Positions 1 through 58,025 of a stretch of 59,637 nucleotides of DNA are shown here, piece by piece. Location: assembly GCA_019247695.1 (NCBI GenBank), contig JAFBAP010000089.1, forward strand, positions 1-59,637, written 5' to 3'. Positions within the stretch are counted from its first letter, which is position 1. Each line of letters begins with the position of its first letter. The position numbers were made by a program, and so were the translations under genes. A model generated the notes under the pieces. It did no database searches. It had not been told where the DNA came from and was given only the letters and a program-made list of their open reading frames with translations. The stretch comes from Verrucomicrobiota bacterium. GTDB lineage: Bacteria > Verrucomicrobiota > Verrucomicrobiia > Chthoniobacterales > JAFAMB01.

Positions 1-199
1 CGCCGAACTCCGAACGCCGAACTCCGAACGCCGAACGCCGAACTCCGAACGCTTTCCCCTTCTTCCTCTTCCTCTTCCTCTTCCCGCCGTGGTCGCCGTG
101 GCTCGCCGTGTTCGCCGTGTGAACTCTTACGTTGCGCCCGCCAAACCCGCTGTGCCCGCCGTGTGACCGAACTCCGAACTCCGAACTCCGAACTCCGAA
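1..199. repeat. Intergenic mosaic repeat: A heptamers, pyrimidine tract, B, A
   Basis: Positions 1-50 are CCGAACT/CCGAACG heptamers (word A). Positions 51-83 are a TTCCTC-rich tract. Positions 84-166 are word B, a 9-base-period CGCCGTGGT-like array followed by GTGCCCGCC-like units. Positions 167-199 are four more CCGAACT copies plus one degenerate copy. The array stops two bases before the nudC stop codon. The window edge truncates it on the left. Confidence 0.9.
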
Positions 200-5303: not shown

Positions 5304-5410
5304 AACGTCCACAGATTACGCAGATTAAAGGGATTAAGGATTCACCCCGGCATGCCGGCTTCCACCCGACACTCGGCACTCGGCACTCAACACTCGGCAC
5401 CCGGCACTCC
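5304..5410. repeat. Intergenic mosaic repeat: C fragment and G heptamers
   Basis: Positions 5308-5326 are a word-C copy (CCACAGATT unit). Positions 5365-5410 carry heptamer-like CACTCGG/CACCCGG units of word G. The spacer separates two convergent genes. The downstream MFS gene ends on AAC GGG TGA, which resembles the repeat word GGGTAAC/GGGTGAC. Confidence 0.8.
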
Positions 5411-6886: not shown

Positions 6887-7247
6887 TCCTGTGTTAAGCC
6901 AATGTCACCGTCGAACTGCTTGCGCCAACAAATATTACTCGGGAACGTCCCTAGTACGGCACTCAGGCAGGGGTTAACGAGGAGCGAGTAAGCGGGCACG
7001 ACGACAGAGTTCACACGGTCACACGGCGGGCACAGTGGGTGGGGCGGGCACAACGTAAGAGTTCACACGGCGACCACGGCGGAAAGAGGAAAGGGTTCGG
7101 GGTTCGGAGCCGGGAGATGTCACGAATGAAGAGGGAACCGACGCCGTTGTGAGGTGTCCCTCTTAATCTGTGTCAATCTGTGTAATCTGTGGATGTTTTC
7201 TCTCTTTTCTGCGTTCTCTGCGTGTTCTGCGGATGATTTCTTGTTCG
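6887..7247. repeat. Intergenic mosaic repeat: B', A', C', D'
   Basis: This 361-base spacer has no credible gene. Word B in reverse (6992-7084) is followed by two or three reversed A heptamers (about 7095-7115), reversed C (7162-7194, TCTGTGTAATCTGTGG) and reversed D (7200-7240, TTCTGCGTTCTCTGCG). It lies upstream of the MFS gene and downstream of the Mla operon, both on the minus strand, so any promoter for the exporter lies in or next to the repeat. Confidence 0.9.
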
Positions 7248-13915: not shown

Positions 13916-14464
13916 AGGGGGAAAGGATCCGGGTAACTTGGACTCGTTTAAAGACGCTGCACTCTAGCCGGTTATTCGATTGTCCCCCGCCTTGTGGATT
14001 CAGTCACACCACGGGCACAGCGGGTTTGGCGGGCATAACGACTGAGTTCACACGGTCACACGGCGGCCGCAGCGGGGGTGGCGGGCACAACGACTGAGTT
14101 CACACGGCGAACACGGCGGCCCACGGCGGGAAGACAGAAATCAGCCGCAGAACACGCAGAAGAACGCAGAAAAGAGGATCCATCCACAGATTACACAGAT
14201 TGACACAGATTAAGGTCACACGGCGGCAACTCCAAGGTTGACACTCGCACCCAACCCCCATGCTGCCGCTCCGAACTCCGAACTCCGAACTCCGAACTCC
14301 GAACTCCGAACTCCGAACTCCGAACTCCGAACTCCGAACTCCGAACTCGTTCCCCTTCTTCCCGCCGTGGTCGCCGTGGTTCGCCGTGTTCGCCGTGTGA
14401 ACTCTTCCGTCGTGTCCGCCCTCCTCGCTGCGCCCGCTGTGTGACCGTGTGCCCGTGTGAACTC
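13916..14464. repeat. Large composite intergenic repeat B'-D-C-H-A(11)-B
   Basis: No gene is visible here. After about 80 unique bases the spacer holds reversed B, duplicated (14004-14133), D (14138-14177, CCGCAGAACACGCAGAAG), C (14178-14214), linker H (14215-14270), eleven perfect CCGAACT copies (14271-14347) and forward B (14352-14464), which continues into the helicase gene to about 14509. Because B' and B face each other, the whole spacer is an imperfect palindrome with distinct words in the loop. Any MATE promoter must lie in the unique part next to 13916-14000. Confidence 0.92.
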
Positions 14465-16468
14465 TTACGTTGTGCCCGCCAAACCCGCTGTGCCCGCCGT
14501 GTGACCGTGCAACCGCGCCACGAACTCCGATTCTCGGGAATGCACCACCGCTAAGTAATCTTCCGCCCGGGTAAGGGCCACATAAAAGAGGGCTTCCTGT
14601 TCCTCGGGTGCGCGGTTAAGCCAACCTGCCTGCGGCAGGATATCGGCCCACAGAAAAACCACGGCTTTAAATTGCAATCCTTTCGCGTGAAAAATGTTGA
14701 GCAGCTTAACGCCGGGCTCGTTGACCCGGGTGCGTGCGGCTGTATCCGCCCGGTTACTCAGCCAGATAAAAGGGATGGCTTTGGCGTTAAGGTCACGGCG
14801 GAACTGGGCGAAGGTTTCGGTCAGATCCTGCAGCACCGCCGGCACCAGCACCCCGATGTCAGCCGGACGAAGCGGACGAGAAAGCTGCCGGGTGCCGAAT
14901 CTGCCCCGGAGTAAACCGGCGATCAAGTCGACGGCGTGCGCGCACTCATCGAGCCGATCCTTTGCCCGAATCACCACCGGCGGCACCCCGCTTGAACGCG
15001 CCGCTTGCGCATGGTCAACGGCGACCGGGCTCACCCCATCGTCCTCCCAGTCCTCCGTCCGGGCAAACGGCGCCGCGAACCCCATGATCTCGCGGGCGTT
15101 CCGATAACTCTTGCGCAGGTAGAGCGTACGGCCCTGAACCGAAAACCCGAGGCTGCTCCAACGGGTACGCCGCCTGCCATAGAGGCCCTGGTTGCCATCG
15201 CCCGCAATCAGAAGGTCTCCGTGCTCGGGATTGTGCAGCAGGCAGCGCGCGCATCGAAACCAGACCGGATCAAAATCCTGGGCTTCGTCGATCAATACCG
15301 CGTCATAACGAAGTTCAGGGGCGACGATCCGGAACCGTGCCAGCAACCGCCGGCCGAGTTCGCTTTGCGGCTCCGCCGGGTGGGTTCGCCGAATCACGCC
15401 GTAGTCACGGGCGAGCTTATCGAAGTGCCGGACGGTGATTAACTCGCCTGCTCCGTGCAGGGCACGCTCGAGATAACTGCCAAGCGAGACGTTGAAACAG
15501 ATTATCAGGACGCGCCGGCCGGCTCCTTGAGCCAGGAGGCGCGCCCGCGAGACCAGCACGATCGTTTTGCCCGACCCGGCAGCCCCGAACATCAGGCGGG
15601 GGCCGGACCCCGGATCGCGAACGGCGAGTTCCTGTTCCAGGTCGAGCACCCTGAAATCAAGTAAACCCTTTTCGGAGGATTCCACCATTCCCGGCCGGGG
15701 GACGCTGACCACTTCGACGGCGATCTCATCGACAACCGCGGCCTTCTCCGGCGTTGACGGTCCAAGCCGCAACCATGGCACGCCGGGTACAGCGGTTTCC
15801 GCCGGAGGAACCACCCGGGCGGCGGACGGGACCGCCACCGGACCTCCCAGGCTCGAGATCAGCAACTCCGGATGAAGGATTGCCCGAAGCGTTTTTACCT
15901 GAAATTCGGTCATCACCGGAAACGGCCAGCTCGGGTGGAAGAACCGGCCCAAACCGGTTGAGGCCTGATTGCCGAAGGCCGCCTCCAATTCGTCGCCGGT
16001 AATCACATCCGGTGCGGAAAAGAGAGCGTTCCAGCCTGAACCAGCCAACTGGCTACGGGTGAGGTTTGACAGCACCGCCAAGGCAGCAAGAGGAAAAAAG
16101 AATTGGTCGTCGGGTTGGAGGAGGTGCTGCGCCCATAAACGTTGCCGGCAACGCTCCTGGAGGTCATCCAGGTAAGTCCGCATTTCCTGCCGCGGGTGTT
16201 CGCAGGAACGAATTCGTCCCTGGCGATCCTTCACCGTGATCCGCTCATGGTTGCCGCCGATCAGGTTTTCCGGGAGCCATCCTCGGACGTCGATCGCCAG
16301 CAGACCCTGCCCGGGGTCGATCACGACGAAAGCCGGGTGCCGGCGCCTGAGATTTGCCTCGTAGTAAACGATGCAATCGGTGGCCAGATGGCGACGCAAA
16401 AGTTCATGGATGCGCTTTTCAGCGTCACTCGCGTGGTTTGGCAACCGGCCAGGGACACAAACCGCCAT
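14465..16468 (-). CDS. NERD-domain UvrD/Rep-like helicase
   Basis: The 667-residue protein joins an N-terminal nuclease-related domain (about 10-115, with YYEANL, FVVIDPGQGLLAIDVRG) to a superfamily 1 helicase. Helicase marks are Walker A GAAGSGKT near residue 300, Walker B VLIDEAQDF near 392, AGDGNQGLYG, LRKSYRN, LLNIFHAKGLQFK near 597 and LFYVALTRAEDYL near the C-terminus. I prefer the ATG at 16468, because MAVCVPGRLP directly precedes the domain; an ATG at 16594 is possible. The last 14 residues ([14 protein letters not shown]) and the TAA stop are encoded by repeat word B, so the native C-terminus appears to have been replaced or extended by the repeat. Confidence 0.88.
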   Translation of the reverse strand: MAVCVPGRLPNHASDAEKRIHELLRRHLATDCIVYYEANLRRRHPAFVVIDPGQGLLAIDVRGWLPENLIGGNHERITVKDRQGRIRSCEHPRQEMRTYLDDLQERCRQRLWAQHLLQPDDQFFFPLAALAVLSNLTRSQLAGSGWNALFSAPDVITGDELEAAFGNQASTGLGRFFHPSWPFPVMTEFQVKTLRAILHPELLISSLGGPVAVPSAARVVPPAETAVPGVPWLRLGPSTPEKAAVVDEIAVEVVSVPRPGMVESSEKGLLDFRVLDLEQELAVRDPGSGPRLMFGAAGSGKTIVLVSRARLLAQGAGRRVLIICFNVSLGSYLERALHGAGELITVRHFDKLARDYGVIRRTHPAEPQSELGRRLLARFRIVAPELRYDAVLIDEAQDFDPVWFRCARCLLHNPEHGDLLIAGDGNQGLYGRRRTRWSSLGFSVQGRTLYLRKSYRNAREIMGFAAPFARTEDWEDDGVSPVAVDHAQAARSSGVPPVVIRAKDRLDECAHAVDLIAGLLRGRFGTRQLSRPLRPADIGVLVPAVLQDLTETFAQFRRDLNAKAIPFIWLSNRADTAARTRVNEPGVKLLNIFHAKGLQFKAVVFLWADILPQAGWLNRAPEEQEALFYVALTRAEDYLAVVHSRESEFVARLHGHTAGTAGLAGTT

Positions 16469-17627: not shown

Positions 17628-17779
17628 AATGCCATAAATGGAAGAGGGTAACGGGTAACGGGTGGAAGGGCACGGGCCGTCGAAGTCACCCCTGAGCGGC
17701 ATATACTCGACGCGACACCCGACACCCGGCACCCGTTACTCGTTACCCGCCACTATTTTCCATTTGTGGCATTCCCCAC
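17628..17779. repeat. Compact palindromic repeat F-E-core-G'/E'-F'
   Basis: Just after the reductase stop comes word F (AATGCCATAAATGG), two GGGTAAC heptamers (E, 17646-17666), a 30-base core containing CCCCTGAG and CATATACTCGACG, reversed G and E heptamers (17712-17752) and reversed F (CCATTTGTGGCATT, about 17759-17772). Reversed F ends eight bases before the ribBA stop codon. It is a complete small inverted-repeat element between convergent genes. Confidence 0.85.
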
Positions 17780-20377: not shown

Positions 20378-20979
20378 GCGTTCCGGACGGCGGGTTCGTG
20401 ACCAGCCGGCAAACGTTGCTTTTCAAGCTGCCGGTTGCGCTTTGGCTTGCCTGGATCATCTATTGGCTCCGGGCAGCCCGCTCGGCAGCCGGAACCCGGC
20501 GCTCGGAATCGTGGCAGTCAGGGGTTTCTTATCGTATTCCGCTTTGCCTCGGCATCGTGCTTCTGAGCCTTCGACGGTTGCTTCCGCCTCCCTGGTCACA
20601 CTTGCTCTACCGGGCCCCGATCCAAAGCGCAATCGCAGCGGTGGCCCTGCAGGGGGCCGGCCTGGGTCTGACCGTGTGGGCCAGGATCCACCTTGGAAAA
20701 TACTGGAGCGCAACCATCACCCTGAAACAGGGCCATCAAGTGATTCAAACCGGTCCCTACGCGCGGGTCCGGCATCCCATTTACAGCGGGTTGCTCCTGG
20801 CCTTGGTTGGTACCGTCATCTGGATCGGAACGCTCCAGAGCTTTCTCGGGGCCGGCCTGCTGTTCGGTTCGTTTATCCGCAAGCTAACCCTGGAAGAGCG
20901 CTGGCTGCGCGAACACCTGGGTGACGAATACGGCCGTTACCAGCAGCGGGTCAAAGCGCTCATCCCCGGGCTTATCTAA
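20374..20979 (+). CDS. Isoprenylcysteine carboxyl methyltransferase-like membrane protein
   Basis: The 201-residue protein has about four or five hydrophobic segments and the ICMT/PEMT-type motif QTGPYARVRHPIYSGLLL around residues 127-144, which in relatives binds S-adenosylmethionine at the membrane face. The C-terminus carries EERWLREHLGDEYGRYQQRV, also typical (shown here as EERWLREHLGDEY). The true substrate in bacteria is usually unknown; lipid or isoprenoid methylation are options. It starts with GTG overlapping the reductase stop codon, so translation is coupled. Confidence 0.82.
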   Translation: MSVPDGGFVTSRQTLLFKLPVALWLAWIIYWLRAARSAAGTRRSESWQSGVSYRIPLCLGIVLLSLRRLLPPPWSHLLYRAPIQSAIAAVALQGAGLGLTVWARIHLGKYWSATITLKQGHQVIQTGPYARVRHPIYSGLLLALVGTVIWIGTLQSFLGAGLLFGSFIRKLTLEERWLREHLGDEYGRYQQRVKALIPGLI

Positions 20980-21209
20980 TGCCACATACTCGGTGACGGG
21001 TAACGGGTAACGCGTAGCGCGTAACGGGTGATGGGTAATGCGTGCGGGTCGGCGTCTGACCCTGAGGGCCGGATACTGGACGTCACGCTCAGTCTTTTTC
21101 TTCCCGCCGTGATTGCCGCGTTTCGCCGTAGCGCCGTGCGGTCGAACCCGCTACCCGCTACCCGCAACCCGTTACCCGCTACGCGTTACGCGTTACCCGC
21201 CACCGACAT
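20980..21209. repeat. Palindromic repeat F-E(n)-core-E'(n)
   Basis: Immediately after the stop lies F (ATGCCACAT), then six or seven GGGTAAC/GCGTAAC units (20995-21045). A core with GACCCTGAGGGCCGGATACTGG resembles the core at 17680-17710 (CCCCTGAG, ATACT). After a unique part come six or more reversed units (CTACCCG, GTTACCC; 21151-21203). The convergent small zinc-ribbon gene ends just beyond. A forward-B-like fragment (TTCCCGCCGTG) lies at about 21102. Confidence 0.85.
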
Positions 21210-32321: not shown

Positions 32322-32528
32322 AATGCCACTAATGCCACAAGCGGAAAAATGCCACAAATGGAAGAAAGCTCCTTGTTCGCGGCATTCCCTGGCAATCTAT
32401 AACCGCGCCGGTGACATTTCCTGATTCCTTGTCCGTGCGGTCTCCGGAAGGAACGTCCCGATCAGTTCTCGTCCATTTGCGGCATTTACTCGACACTCGA
32501 CGCTCGACACCCGCCACGCTCCTGCGTC
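32322..32528. repeat. Intergenic repeat with three F copies and G heptamers
   Basis: Directly after the stop, F is repeated as AATGCCACTAATGCCACA and again AATGCCACAAATGG (32323-32361), a clear 9-base period. The middle (32362-32480) is mostly unique. The right end has GCGGCATT and ACTCGACACTCGACG (32480-32510). The two flanking genes are convergent. Confidence 0.8.
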
Positions 32529-37909: not shown

Positions 37910-38532
37910 AAGATGCGGTCAATCCGCCCAGGCTGCAACCCGGCGGGCACACGGCGGGCACGGCGGGTTTGGCGGGCACAACGACAGAGTTCACACCGCG
38001 AACACGGCGGGCCACGGCGGAACGACTAAATCATCCGCAGAACACGCAGAAAAGAGGAAAGCATCCACAGATTACACAGCTTGACACAGATTAAGAGGAC
38101 CCGGCGGCAACTCTAAGGCCGAGACTCGCACCCACCCCCCACTCCGAACTCCGAACCCCGAACTCCGAACTCTCTCCTCTTCCCGCCGTGGCTCGCCGTG
38201 TTCGCCGTGTGAACTCTTACGTCGTGCCCGCCACCCCCGCCGTGCCCGCCGTGTGCCCTTAATCTGTGTCAATCTGTGTAATCTGTGGATGTTTTCTCGT
38301 TTCTGCGTTCGTCTGCGTGTTCTGCGGATGATTTATCTTCCCGCCGTGGTCGCCGTGGCTCGCCGTGTGAACTCAGTCGTTGTGCCCGCCTTTTCGCCGT
38401 GCCCGCCGTGTGACCGTGTGACCCTGGCCCGACAATCGGGATGTCCACCCACCCTTGGACTCGCTCCCTGGGTTGCGCCCGGGCGGAATTAAAATAGCGT
38501 ATACGTTCCCGGGAAATCCCGGTCAGCAAAAC
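37910..38532. repeat. Composite repeat between divergent genes: B'-D-C-H-A-B-C'-D'-B
   Basis: This spacer holds two word series. Reversed B (37943-38020), D (38025-38056), C (38060-38094), H-like linker (38100-38146), A heptamers (38147-38181) and B (38186-38259) form one palindrome. Reversed C (38260-38290), reversed D (38292-38336) and another B (38338-38424) follow. Both flanking genes point outward, so their promoters lie in or beside the repeats. The last 108 bases before the MFS start are unique, with an AT-rich patch (ATTAAAATAGCGTATACG) near 38488-38505. Confidence 0.9.
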
Positions 38533-43202: not shown

Positions 43203-43663
43203 ATAAATGCCACAAATGAAGAGTGACGGGTAACGGGTAACGAGTGTCGGGTGTCGGTCACACTGCGGGCACGACGACTGAGTTCACACGGCGAACACGG
43301 CGGGCCACGGCGGGAAGAGGAAGAGTTCGGGGCTCGGCGTTCGGAGTTCGGAGGCGTCGTAGAACCGGATCCGATCTCCCCCGAGGGTCAGGCTCACCCC
43401 GCGGAAGACAAAATCATCCGCAGAACACGCAGAAAAACGCAGAAAAAGAATCCCAAACGCTGGACTTGACATCGGCAGCCGGCACCCATGCTGCAACTCC
43501 GAACTCCGAACTCGTTTCCCTTCCCCCTCTTCCCGCCGTGTTCGCCGTGGCTCGCCGTGTTCGCCGTGTGAACTCTTACGTCGTGCCCGCCAGCCCCGCC
43601 GTGCCCGCCGTGTGACGGTAATCTGTGTAATCTGTGGACGTTTTCTCTGTTCTGCGGATGATC
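43203..43663. repeat. Composite intergenic repeat F-E-B'-A'-I-D-H-A-B-C'-D'
   Basis: After the stop lie F (43207-43220), E (43225-43246), reversed B (43256-43318) and reversed A (43324-43349). Next come word I (GGAGGCGTCGTAGAACCGG, shared with position 52504), D (43405-43450), a short H-like linker (43465-43500), A (43498-43513), B (43528-43617), a short reversed C (43618-43640) and reversed D. The convergent DUF3500 gene ends within the D' boundary, with a TGA stop just after GATCATCCGCAG read on its strand. Confidence 0.9.
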
Positions 43664-49495: not shown

Positions 49496-49767
49496 AGGTG
49501 ATTAGAATGCCACAAACTCGGTGGCGGGTAACTAACTGGCAACTCGTAACTGGTAGCGCGTAACGGGTACCGGTTAAAGTTCGGAGTTCGGAGTTCGGAG
49601 TTCGGGGTTCGGAGTTCGGGGTTCGGGGTTCGGCGCTCGGTCACACGGCGGGCACGGCGGGTTGGGCGGGCGCAACGTAAGAGTTCACACGGCGAACACG
49701 GCGGACCACGGCGACCACGGCGGGAAGAGGAGGAGGAGGCGTTAGGCGTTACCAGACCAGCTACCCG
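49496..49767. repeat. Composite intergenic repeat F-E-A'-B'
   Basis: F (AATGCCACAAACTCGG, from 49507) is followed by GGTAACT/GTAACGG heptamers (E, 49520-49577), eight reversed A copies (49578-49636, variants TTCGGAG/TTCGGGG), and reversed B (49641-49730). It ends at a CTACCCGTTA word (49761-49770) that includes the DedA-like gene's TAA stop. Both neighbours are on the minus strand. Confidence 0.88.
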
Positions 49768-51143: not shown

Positions 51144-52469
51144 GTGGGCAAGGCAACGATGCAGGCGGCCACGACGCAGAGGTCCGTTGAACACCGGACC
51201 ATTCAGGTTTTGAGTGAAATTTTTGCGGGTTGCCCCCTCGAGAGGGTAGCCGTGCGGCTTTGGGATGGAACGCCGTGGCCTGATGGACGGCCCCGTCCTG
51301 CGACGATCGTGCTTAAAGACCCTGATGCGCTCCGCCGGATGTTCCTGCCCGGCTCGGAAATCGGTCTGGCTGAAGCCTACCTGTATGATGATTTTGACCT
51401 CGAAGGGGACATCGAGGCGGCGTTCGACATCGGCGATTTTCTGCTGACCCGGGTCCGGGACTGGCGGACGAAGCTCAAGCTGGCGGCGGCGCTGCTGGCT
51501 TTGCCCGGGGAAAGCTCGGGGCTGCGGGCGGCCGCAGGGCGGTTCCTGCCCGATTTGCGCGGCAAACGTCATTCGCGCGAGCGGGACCGGCGGTCGGTCA
51601 CATTTCACTACAATGTGTCGAATGATTTTTACCGGCTCTGGCTGGACTCCCGGATGGTCTATTCCTGCGCGTATTTTAAATCGCCGGATGACAGTCTCGA
51701 TGCGGCGCAGGAACGCAAGCTCGACTACATCTGCCGCAAGCTGCGCCTGCGCCCCGGCCAGCGGTTACTCGACATCGGTTGCGGCTGGGGCGGGCTGGTC
51801 ATGTACGCTGCCCAACGCTATGGGGTAAGCGCACTCGGCGTCAGCTTGAGCGAACCGCAGGTTGAGTGGGCCCGCGCGCGCATCGCCGAGGCCGGCCTGA
51901 AAGATCGGGTCGCGGTGGAACTGCGCGACTATCGCGAGATCGCCCCGGATTGCGATGGCCCGTGCGACGCCGTGGTAAGCGTCGGGATGGCTGAGCACGT
52001 CGGACGCGAGCGGCTGAAGGACTACTTCAAAATCGCCTTCGATACCCTTAAACCCGGCGGCGTGTTCCTGAATCACGCCATCGGCGAGGGTGTGGCGGCA
52101 TTGCCCGTCGACCCCAATGATTCGTTCGTCTATCGTATTGTTTTTCCCGACGGCGACATCCCGCCGCTGCCCGCTGTCCTCGGGGCCGCCGAGCCGGCGG
52201 GGTTCGAAATCCGCGATGTTGAAAATCTGCGTGAGCATTATGCGCTCACCCTGCGCCATTGGGTGCGACGGTTGGAAGCGCATTACACCGAAGCGCGATT
52301 CTGCGTGGACGAACCCACCTACCGCACCTGGCGGCTCTACATGGCCGGGTCAGCCCACAACTTCGCGCGCGGTCAAATTGCCGTTTACCAGACGCTGTTG
52401 GCGAAAGTCGACCAGGCGGGCAACGCGCGCCTGCCTCTGACGCGCGACGATTGGTATCACACGGCATAG
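51144..52469 (+). CDS. cfa: Cyclopropane-fatty-acyl-phospholipid synthase
   Basis: The 441-residue enzyme adds a methylene group from S-adenosylmethionine to unsaturated phospholipid acyl chains. Visible are the SAM motif LLDIGCGWGGL near residue 212, FHYNVSNDFYRLWLD near 153, and VSVGMAEHVGRERLKDYF in the active-site region. The N-terminal 110 residues match the usual Cfa extra domain. Translation can begin at the GTG at 51144 or the ATG at 51159, the latter five bases after AAGG. It is single and divergent from the GNAT gene. Confidence 0.93.
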   Translation: MGKATMQAATTQRSVEHRTIQVLSEIFAGCPLERVAVRLWDGTPWPDGRPRPATIVLKDPDALRRMFLPGSEIGLAEAYLYDDFDLEGDIEAAFDIGDFLLTRVRDWRTKLKLAAALLALPGESSGLRAAAGRFLPDLRGKRHSRERDRRSVTFHYNVSNDFYRLWLDSRMVYSCAYFKSPDDSLDAAQERKLDYICRKLRLRPGQRLLDIGCGWGGLVMYAAQRYGVSALGVSLSEPQVEWARARIAEAGLKDRVAVELRDYREIAPDCDGPCDAVVSVGMAEHVGRERLKDYFKIAFDTLKPGGVFLNHAIGEGVAALPVDPNDSFVYRIVFPDGDIPPLPAVLGAAEPAGFEIRDVENLREHYALTLRHWVRRLEAHYTEARFCVDEPTYRTWRLYMAGSAHNFARGQIAVYQTLLAKVDQAGNARLPLTRDDWYHTA

Positions 52470-52790
52470 AAGTTCGGGGTTCGGCGGTCGGAGTTCGGAG
52501 TTCGGAGGCGCTGTACAACCGGGTCCACCTTTTCCGTGGAACACGGCGAGAAGATTAAATCATCCGCAGAACACGCAGAAGAACGCAGAAAAGCTGAAAC
52601 ATCCACAGATTACACAGATTGACACAGATTAAGGTCACACGGCGGAAAGCCATGCCGCCCGGCGCCTTTTCATTTGTGGCATTTTTCCGCTTGTGGCATT
52701 CTCTTTCGCTCCGAACCCCGAACGCCGAACCCCGAACTCTTTCCTCTTCCCGCCGTGGTCGCCGTGGCTCGCCGTGTTCGCCGTGTGACC
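52470..52790. repeat. Composite repeat A'-I-D-C-F'-A-B
   Basis: Reversed A (52472-52505) is followed by word I (GGAGGCGCTGTACAACCGGG, matching 43347), D (52553-52592), C (52596-52633), reversed F twice (CATTTGTGGCATT, CTTGTGGCATT; 52671-52700), A (52709-52739) and forward B from 52746. B continues into the acyl-CoA dehydrogenase gene to about 52845. Confidence 0.9.
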
Positions 52791-54482
52791 TCAGTCGTTG
52801 TGCCCGCTCTCTTCCGTCGTGCCCGCCGTGTGACCTGTTCTAGGCTGGGCCCGCTCGAGCAGCAGTGTCACGCCCTCTTCCGAGCGCAATGTTCCGAATG
52901 CCAGGCCGGGTCTCTCCGTCAGACGGGCGGCGCAGAAAAGGTCCGCCACCGGCTGGTTCCCGCTTCGGATCAAGGCGGACGCTTCCAAAGCGAGCGCCAA
53001 CTGTTCCACCAACCTGCGGGCGCCGAACTCCGCACCCGCGATCTCCTTTGCCGAAAGAAGGGACGCGATAAAATGATCAAAAATGGAGTTTGCCCCCGTC
53101 GTTGACGCAAGCTCCTGCCGGAGTGCGGCGATGGTCTCCGGATCCTTTTGCATCGCCTTTAAGACGTCGAGGCATTGGACGTTACCGGCGCCTTCCCAGA
53201 GAGAATTCAGGGGAGCATCCCGGTAGAGGCGCGGAAGCGGCGATTCTTCGATGTACCCGTTTCCGCCGAGGCATTCCAACGCTTCGGCGACGATTACGGG
53301 CGTCCGTTTAGTGACCCAGTACTTGGCGATGGCCGTCGCGATGCGGGCAAACTTTTGCTCGCGTGGATCTTCCTTCGAACGATCGAACGCACGCGCGAGG
53401 CGAATCGCCAGGGTGGTCGCCGCTTCGGATTCCAGGCATAAGTCAGCCAGCACATTTCGCATGAGCGGCTGATCGATCAACCGGCGGCCGAACGCCGACC
53501 GGTGAGCCGCATGATGCGTGGCTTCGGCGACGGCCTTGCGCACCGCTGCCGCCGATCCGAGCGCGCAATCCAGGCGCGTGTGGCGCACCATCTCCATGAT
53601 CGTTGCGACCCCGCGGCCTTCTTCACCGACCAATCGTGCCGACGCGCGCCGGAACTCCACTTCGCCGGAGGCATTCGAGCGGTTACCCAGTTTGTCCTTC
53701 AAACGGAGAAGATGAAACGCGTTCCTGGTTCCGTCCGAACGCCACCGGGGCATCAGAAAACAGGAAAGCCCGCCCACCGTTTGTGCTAGGATAAAGAAGG
53801 CGTCACACATCGGCGCGGAGCAAAACCATTTGTGCCCGGTGAGGATGTACTCCCGGCCGGGACCGCCGCCATCGACGGATTCCGCCCACGTCGTGTTCGC
53901 CCGGACGTCGCTGCCGCCCTGCCGCTCCGTCATGCCCATTCCGAAGAGGACACCGCCTTTTTCGGACGCCGGGATGGCTCGAGGGTCGTAAACGGACGAC
54001 AGGGCCCGGGGTTCCCATTCCGCCACGAGCTCCGGCTGCAGGCGGAGCGACGGGATGGCCGCAAACGTCATCGTCAGGGGACAACTGGAGCCTTCGTCGA
54101 CCTGGTGCCGGAGCATCAGCAAGACGGCCCGTGCGACCTGAGCTCCCGGACGGCTTTCCACCCAGGGTAACGAATGACACCGCGCCTCGATCCCGATACG
54201 CATCAACTCATGGTAGGCCGGGTGGTAGACGACCTCGTCGATACGGTAACCGAATCGATCATGGGTTCTCAGTTCCGGTGCAAACCGATTTGCCTGGACG
54301 CCCAGGTTGATCGTTTCCGGCCGGCCTAAAAACGCTCCGAACCTGGATGCGTCCGCGTTGATCCAGCCGGCGCCTTCGCGTTGAACCGCCTCCTTCAAGG
54401 CGGAGTCGCTCTCGAAGAGGTTGTAATCTTCCAACGGCGGCGGCTGGTTGAAAACGGCATCGGGAGGGTAAAGGGCGCCCAT
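52791..54482 (-). CDS. Acyl-CoA dehydrogenase, AidB-like
   Basis: The 563-residue flavoenzyme has the AidB-type layout: N-terminal helices, GMGMTERQGGSDVRANTT (about 173-190, FAD/substrate region), a middle beta domain, and ALECLGGNGYIEESPLPRLYRDAP with SLWEGAGNVQCLDVLKAM in the C-terminal helices. The AidB group may protect DNA or oxidise isovaleryl-type substrates. The last 14 residues (GHTAGTTEESGHND) and the TGA stop are encoded by repeat word B, in the same register as the helicase tail at 14465-14509. It lies downstream of xylB by 78 bases. Confidence 0.9.
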   Translation of the reverse strand: MGALYPPDAVFNQPPPLEDYNLFESDSALKEAVQREGAGWINADASRFGAFLGRPETINLGVQANRFAPELRTHDRFGYRIDEVVYHPAYHELMRIGIEARCHSLPWVESRPGAQVARAVLLMLRHQVDEGSSCPLTMTFAAIPSLRLQPELVAEWEPRALSSVYDPRAIPASEKGGVLFGMGMTERQGGSDVRANTTWAESVDGGGPGREYILTGHKWFCSAPMCDAFFILAQTVGGLSCFLMPRWRSDGTRNAFHLLRLKDKLGNRSNASGEVEFRRASARLVGEEGRGVATIMEMVRHTRLDCALGSAAAVRKAVAEATHHAAHRSAFGRRLIDQPLMRNVLADLCLESEAATTLAIRLARAFDRSKEDPREQKFARIATAIAKYWVTKRTPVIVAEALECLGGNGYIEESPLPRLYRDAPLNSLWEGAGNVQCLDVLKAMQKDPETIAALRQELASTTGANSIFDHFIASLLSAKEIAGAEFGARRLVEQLALALEASALIRSGNQPVADLFCAARLTERPGLAFGTLRSEEGVTLLLERAQPRTGHTAGTTEESGHND

Positions 54483-57490: not shown

Positions 57491-58025
57491 GGAAGAAAAT
57501 GCCACAGAGTGTCGGGTGCCGGGTGTCGGGTGTCGGGTGTCGGGTGCCGGTCACACGGCGGCCACAGCGGGGCGGCGGGCACAACGTAAGAGTTCACACG
57601 GCGAACACGGCGGGAAGATTAAATCATCCGCAGAACACGCAGAAGGACGCAGAAAAGAGAAAACATCCACAGATCACACAGATTGACACAGATTAAGGGG
57701 ACCTGGCGGCAACTCAAAGGTTGACACTCGCACCCACCCCCCATGATGCCGCTCCGAACCCTTTCCCCTCCTCCCTCTTCCCGCCGTGGTCGCCGTGGCC
57801 CGCCGTGTTCGCCGTGTGAACTCTTACGTTGTGCCCGCCAAACCCGCTGTGCCCGCCGTGTGACCGAACTCCGAACTCCGAACTCCGCACCCGTTACCCG
57901 TTACCCGTTACCCGTTACCCGCCATTCTTCATTTGTGGCATTTCTCCATGTCCACAACTCTACCGGGATGTGTACTTTTCGTTTTGAACAAAACTGCGAC
58001 TTGTGCAAGGGTCGCTTTCTCCGTT
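57491..58025. repeat. Full composite repeat F-G-B'-D-C-H-B-A-E-F' between divergent genes
   Basis: This is the most complete mosaic. F (57497-57508), G (57509-57552), B' (57551-57615), D (57620-57660), C (57661-57697), H (57712-57757), a short pyrimidine tract, B (57779-57863), A (57864-57890), E (57890-57922) and F' (57925-57942) follow in order. The outer F/F' and inner B'/B pairs are inverted. The remaining 80 bases before the sulfurtransferase ATG are unique. Confidence 0.92.

Follow-up and report, generated by a model that had tools for sequence, protein, structure and literature searches.

Nested intergenic palindromes of a Verrucomicrobiota genome and their candidate partner genes in two small protein families

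The spacer at 57491-57945 of a Verrucomicrobiota contig is filled with short words that recur, facing each other, in other spacers of the same contig. What is this mosaic, and what could have spread it? We analysed the whole stretch of DNA that contains it (the window, 59,637 nucleotides of contig C89 in the 5.19-Mb draft genome G000), along with the rest of the genome, its relatives and distant bacteria. Within the phylum, the organism most likely belongs to the order Chthoniobacterales, since a protein of a same-order genome shares 99% identity with one from a Chthoniobacter flavus MAG. Intergenic heptamer and nonamer arrays of bacteria have been catalogued for decades without, to our knowledge, a source being found, and we know of no settled role for two widespread protein families, PF05635 and GxxExxY, that enter the account below.

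A layered order of inward-facing words

As single-stranded DNA, the locus folds into one giant hairpin (-141.7 kcal/mol, compared to -77.8 kcal/mol for shuffled sequences; z -15). Its left outer end is an F word, an exact match to AATGCCACA (57498-57506, plus strand) that pairs in the fold with TGTGGCATT at 57934 and is cognate to a four-helix gene on contig C128. Next come a t heptamer array (GTGTCGG; 57509-57550, plus strand; TRF period 7, 6 copies), for which no cognate gene was found, and the left PQR nonamer arm (CACACGGCGGCCACAGCGG...GAGTTCACACGGCGAACACGGCGGGAAG; 57550-57617, plus strand), a word that also flanks a GxxExxY gene on contig C29. The word scan then places a D word (CGCAGAACACGCAGAAGGACGCAGAAA; 57625-57656, plus strand), of the kind that flanks a GxxExxY gene on contig C25, a C word (CACAGATCACACAGATTGACACAGATTA; 57664-57695, plus strand) and, as the core, an H/h word (57705-57749, plus strand). 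On the other side, the right PQR arm (R' Q' P'; 57777-57864, minus strand) pairs in the fold with 57550-57617. It is followed by two heptamer arrays of TRF period 7, s' (CCGAACT; 57864-57887, minus strand), cognate to a four-helix gene on contig C80, and a' (ACCCGTT; 57889-57921, minus strand), cognate to four-helix genes on contigs C147 and C59. The right outer end is F' (TTTGTGGCATT; 57930-57942, minus strand), located by the fold and the word scan.

The words fall into a few unit classes. Words a (GGGTAAC), t (GTGTCGG) and s (CGGAGTT) are heptamer arrays, and F belongs to a 17-nt unit of about AATGCCACAAACGGAAA. PQR (CACACGGCG type), D (CGCAGAA type) and C (CACAGATTA type) are arrays of 9-10 nt, to which the cores H and v are added.

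The initial annotation had counted about twelve spacers bearing these words. Our word scan recovered all the words it described and found 12 islands with several words in the window. Besides the locus itself, one island is cut by the contig start (s' R' Q' P' s'; 3-199, minus strand), a weak one has C/D and then t' heptamers (5306-5409, plus strand) and one reads a s s s P Q R (49504-49731, plus strand). The unstranded islands are Q P Q s C' D' (6992-7239), P Q P Q R D C H h s' R' Q' P' Q' P' (14003-14509), a small F a t' a' F' (17630-17774), a heptamer palindrome a a ... a' a' (20978-21204), F F F' t' (32324-32513), P Q R D C H s' R' Q' P' C' D' R' Q' P' (37946-38422), F a t Q R s v D s' Q' P' C' D' (43206-43660) and s v D C F' s' R' Q' P' (52466-52835). 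The neighbours are ordinary genes (at 57.5 kb, for example, those for an FAD-linked oxidase and for a rhodanese); no fixed class of neighbour gene was seen beside the islands, and Rfam 15 gave 0 matches in the window at the gathering score.

The same words recur across the genome in non-random order, as the initial annotation required of its element. We counted 192 multi-word groups in 1.07 Mb, a sample partly selected for words and so biased upwards in island density, and 1 in a control read backwards. The PQR core word has 306 copies genome-wide, compared to 0 in the control. Word adjacency has an entropy of 5.12 bits; random words give 7.44, and shuffling the order within islands gives 7.19. 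The proposal that F/F' and B'/B face each other also holds: wherever a word occurs in both orientations within an island, the forward copy precedes the inverse (244/244). The order itself is a strong tendency. Among 52 pairs of two-armed families sharing an island, 31 are nested and 21 are crossed or side by side; F is external to a and t, PQR to D and C, and D to C. A Nussinov-type count of nested pairs (161) is not clearly above order shuffles (mean 151, maximum 165). Given the non-random adjacency and the nesting in 31 of 52 pairs, the word grammar is real, and it is less rigid than the fixed order first described. Arms of one locus are also 84.5% alike, compared to 81.7% for arms of different loci (0/2000 permutations). 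Many draft contigs start or finish inside islands (for example, C14:1, C17:18529, C29:1 and C35:1), so the copy numbers are probably underestimates.

Small genes enclosed by the arrays

None of the window genes examined is a transposase, as had been noted from the start. A test for a RAYT-type or other transposase had been suggested; two RAYT genes are present in the genome, and neither has mosaic words as inverted flanks. One of them has other repeats alongside, and in relatives RAYT genes are flanked by inverted GTCCCGTAGGGAC-type repeats (L060, L062-L065, around 1300-2100). We rejected RAYT as the partner, since these genes carry other repeats or none. Remnants of the GTCCCGTAGGGAC-type repeats lie inside sister-species spacers L055 and L074.

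The first clue to other candidates was the arms found around a GxxExxY gene (PF13366/TIGR04256) in this genome and around its remnant in the sister species. Both GxxExxY genes that we found here sit within inverted mosaic words, PQR on C29 and D on C25. An unbiased scan of ORFs with inverted flanks yielded PF05635 (TIGR02436) four-helix genes inside a arrays. All four PF05635 genes found lie inside inverted arrays (a on C147 and C59, s on C80, F on C128), and the same inverted-flank score is attained by 1.2% of 1315 other ORFs of the genome; RAYT genes, a known case, were the positive control for this comparison. Profile matches exceed the curated cut-off for PF05635/TIGR02436 and for PF13366/TIGR04256, the latter with the catalytic pattern kept. 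No gene of this genome goes with word t or with the cores H and v, and C lacks one of its own.

Across genomes, GxxExxY copy number does not correlate with the abundance of one particular word, which suggested that words might be specific to individual genes. These particular words are missing from genomes of the family that have more GxxExxY genes; this absence is expected if words are gene-specific and is not proof of it. The sister-species draft (G001, 86% complete) has the words together with one GxxExxY hit and 0 PF05635 hits.

The pairing of gene and arrays recurs in distant bacteria. A scan of 85,000 named species genomes supplied 77 GxxExxY genes, and 67 of their loci exceed a level that 5% of 161 control genes attain; other genes were used as the control because swapping arms among GxxExxY loci, which share words, gave an inflated one. 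The arms are arrays such as TCACGCAAAGACGCAAAGGCGCAAAG that end near the ORF. Within the phylum, loci scoring at least 14 comprise 25/25 for GxxExxY, with arm periods of 8-10, and 21/25 for PF05635, with periods of mostly 7-8. Four-helix genes on named, mostly cyanobacterial plasmids lie inside inverted heptamer arrays in 12 of 14 cases (for example, TAGGGAG in Nostoc edaphicum), and no PF05635 match was found in phage records. Among GxxExxY loci, array similarity tracks protein similarity (Mantel r 0.41 over 87 loci, with 0/2000 permutations; 0.415 with sphingomonads removed). Of the upstream arms at GxxExxY and PF05635 loci, about 85% are rich in purines on the strand that leads into the element, and about 15% break this polarity. 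Some four-helix units on cyanobacterial plasmids occupy CRISPR-Cas operons (cas10-cmr3, cas6-cas4; L301, L302, L308). L308, on a Pseudanabaena galeata plasmid, is an exception in its arrays, AAAAGCT/AAAAGCC, which are direct and not inverted.

Insertion, gene-less copies and turnover

On plasmid C of Trichormus variabilis, a four-helix gene and its arrays form a 423-bp insertion plus a duplicated GTAAT (428 bp). Plasmids of Nostoc linckia and Aulosira hold empty counterparts of the site that are 98% identical, and the only ORF in the unit is PF05635. Scytonema has the same insertion with fewer left heptamers, and Nostoc C052 has an internally deleted copy. A TraM-linked site on Nostoc plasmids is empty in one, holds the gene unit in two and a gene-less 260-bp heptamer palindrome in another, with flanks too unclean to delimit a target duplication. 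In Picosynechococcus 7003 a unit lies between cas10 and cmr3, and 7002 is without it. The clean empty site shows that gene and arrays of the PF05635 type insert as a block; the 5-bp target duplication (GTAAT) comes from this one PF05635 insertion and does not cover GxxExxY units or the window islands.

In Sphingomonas, GxxExxY occupies a single fixed site between fabD and fabG, so this copy may be domesticated. It is present in 14 of 41 genomes. The arrays at this site differ among species and the arms of one locus agree (92% within, compared to 80% between; 0/800 permutations). Among the matches listed, extra array copies occur in 10 of the 14 genomes with the gene and 0 of about 25 without it (p about 1.6e-6), a count that sets aside G342 and G334 and in which G349, scored as without, may hold a divergent copy. 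The extra copies that we inspected come from S. phyllosphaerae and S. faeni; they are palindromes that lack the gene, and two of them are a palindrome within a palindrome (L338, L340). These nested gene-less palindromes have the architecture of the window mosaics and occur in isolate genomes.

Closer to the window, the words differ between relatives. The PQR core, so abundant here, has 32 copies in the sole same-genus genome, that of the sister species, and none in nine genomes from other genera of the family. The C-word core 17-mer CACAGATTACACAGATT has 142 copies here and 32 in one distant genus of the phylum; it is multicopy in a few such genera and absent from most others. Orthologous spacers of the two sister species usually carry different word combinations, and at some sites just one of the two species has an occupied spacer. 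No target duplication could be defined between the two genomes, which are too far diverged (relatives are about 85% identical) and mostly carry different mosaics at these sites. A GxxExxY remnant in the sister species is enclosed by mirrored PQR, D and C arms, and the intact gene at the orthologous site of this genome by PQR alone (L079:1520-1949 and L038:4674-5278); the arms seem to change symmetrically. At another spacer (L110:6368-7046) this genome has a small ORF with a coiled coil and a membrane helix beside PQR, F and s words, and the sister species has other words.

The mosaics had been read as a single dispersed, non-coding element family, perhaps mobilised or spread by gene conversion. 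Dispersal and non-coding character are borne out, as the words occur genome-wide and in the sister species and are lineage-specific and mobile-looking. They are not one family, since at least five are nested in one another, most of which have a gene of their own elsewhere in the genome. Mobilisation fits the data, and the excess similarity of arms within a locus argues for conversion weakly here (84.5% vs 81.7%) and more strongly in Sphingomonas (92% vs 80%).

Proposed mechanism, known systems and rival explanations

The structural model of GxxExxY (pLDDT 91) has a PD-(D/E)XK core with conserved E, D and ExK residues. Its best Foldseek match, SSO0001 (4ic1), is weak overall (best E 7e-4, TM 0.46). 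PF05635 has no nuclease motif. A search of solved structures by sequence returned none for GxxExxY and 2gsc for PF05635.

The pairing of genes with arrays holds both here and in other phyla, related sites have gene-less copies, and the families nest. We think it likely that the mosaics are stacked gene-less, REPIN-like, non-autonomous copies of at least five palindromic families, which belong to two element classes whose cognate proteins act in trans. A full element would consist of one small gene inside paired, inward-facing short-unit arrays. A PF05635 gene would be enclosed by units of 7 nt or by the 17-nt F, and a PF13366 gene by units of 8-10 nt. The gene product would act in trans on arrays matching its own, perhaps by recognising the hairpin or cruciform that they form. 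This would let gene-less palindromes spread and insert into older palindromes or next to them, building up a nested mosaic. A Cas4-like nuclease fold would suit GxxExxY to cutting hairpins or cruciforms and thus to landing in older palindromes; PF05635 may bind the arrays and recruit another enzyme. The concerted arms suggest template switching within palindromes, and such switching between arms may keep both alike. We infer that the proteins drive movement, and the manner of it.

Several known systems share part of this architecture. REPINs and their RAYT genes (PMC3116915) likewise combine gene-less palindromic doublets dispersed between genes with a low-copy gene flanked by the same repeats. 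Here, however, the partners are PF05635 and PF13366 rather than an HUH Y1 enzyme, no RAYT (PF01797) is flanked by the mosaic words, the ends are variable-length arrays of 7-17-nt units, and several families are nested. Intervening sequences of 23S rRNA, long suspected to be mobile, also have a PF05635-type ORF between inverted repeats, and its product is known as S23p (PMC4990558). Unlike those sequences, the units dissected here lie between protein genes, end in heptamer arrays, have a clean empty site and have many gene-less copies. Intergenic heptamer arrays of patchy distribution, like words a, t and s, include the cyanobacterial STRRs, GGGAATC in Xanthomonas, where convergent pairs are reported, and TAACTGA in Beggiatoaceae (PMC4692102, PMC4679880). 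PF05635 genes on cyanobacterial plasmids carry such arrays. The papers on the Xanthomonas and Nostoc heptamers (PMC4692102) and on those of Beggiatoaceae (PMC4679880) name no element or partner gene, and for TAACTGA "no mechanism is evident" (PMC4679880). MITEs of DDE insertion sequences resemble our units in their terminal inverted repeats and non-autonomous copies and, for the one Trichormus insertion, in a short target duplication, but the sole gene in one dissected unit is a four-helix-bundle ORF and no DDE transposase is there. GxxExxY shares the PD-(D/E)XK core of the Cas4/MGME1/lambda exonuclease fold and differs in being a stand-alone protein of about 125 aa inside inverted arrays.

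The strongest rival holds that the arrays are older, independent repeats, and that both gene families are passengers that settled in the palindromes and move nothing. The genes do lie inside palindromes, as the ORFs of intervening sequences lie in rRNA hairpins. The fixed Sphingomonas site, the missing nuclease motif of PF05635 and words such as t with no gene here are also what passengers would leave. Yet array sequence tracks protein sequence across phyla, extra array copies are confined, among the matches listed, to gene-bearing Sphingomonas genomes, and the Trichormus gene and arrays arrived together at a previously array-free site, so we regard this explanation as unlikely. Sister species have occupied and empty versions of orthologous sites, and the homologous cyanobacterial case has a clean insertion that duplicated its target. 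Both observations argue against a second rival, in which the palindromes are host terminators, mRNA stabilisers or regulatory hairpins that spread by gene conversion and are not mobile. Unrelated families are nested and no fixed neighbour class is seen. We consider such host features quite improbable, although strong hairpins, arms alike within a locus and an intergenic position would suit them.

The explanation that a Y1-type RAYT moves the palindromes, which would then be REPINs, has in its favour the two RAYT genes of the genome and a similar inverted-doublet architecture (PMC3116915). It is very improbable, because relatives' RAYTs are flanked by unrelated GTCCCGTAGGGAC repeats, those here have no mosaic words as inverted flanks, and RAYT-bearing relatives are without the words. 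Simple repeats grown by slippage, an assembly artefact or chance would account for the varying number of tandem units and for the many contigs that end in islands. We find this hardly credible in view of the ordered grammar of several families, with 192 groups against 1 in the reversed control, and the occurrence of the same architecture in complete, isolate-derived replicons refutes it.

We return to the reading of the mosaics as gene-less copies moved in trans. A search of the open-access literature, with subscription papers mostly outside its reach, found no link of either protein family to such repeats, and both element classes appear to be undescribed. As neither protein belongs to a known transposase class, we count the elements as a new kind; by architecture alone they are REPIN/RAYT-like. 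A wider proposal, to which we give about even chances, is that PF05635 and GxxExxY define two unrecognised classes of mobile element, with 7-nt and 8-10-nt array ends, respectively. Their gene-less copies would explain much of the so far unexplained short tandem repeats and palindromes between bacterial genes, among them the cyanobacterial STRRs, other heptamers and the CACAGATTA- and CACGAAGGA-type nonamers, and would provide a link to how 23S rRNA intervening sequences arose. If the repeats and the proteins belong together, the source of the arrays and the role of the two families would have one directly testable answer. If this is true, bacteria would carry two classes of mobile element with proteins unlike known transposases, one a helical bundle and the other a lone Cas4-like nuclease fold.
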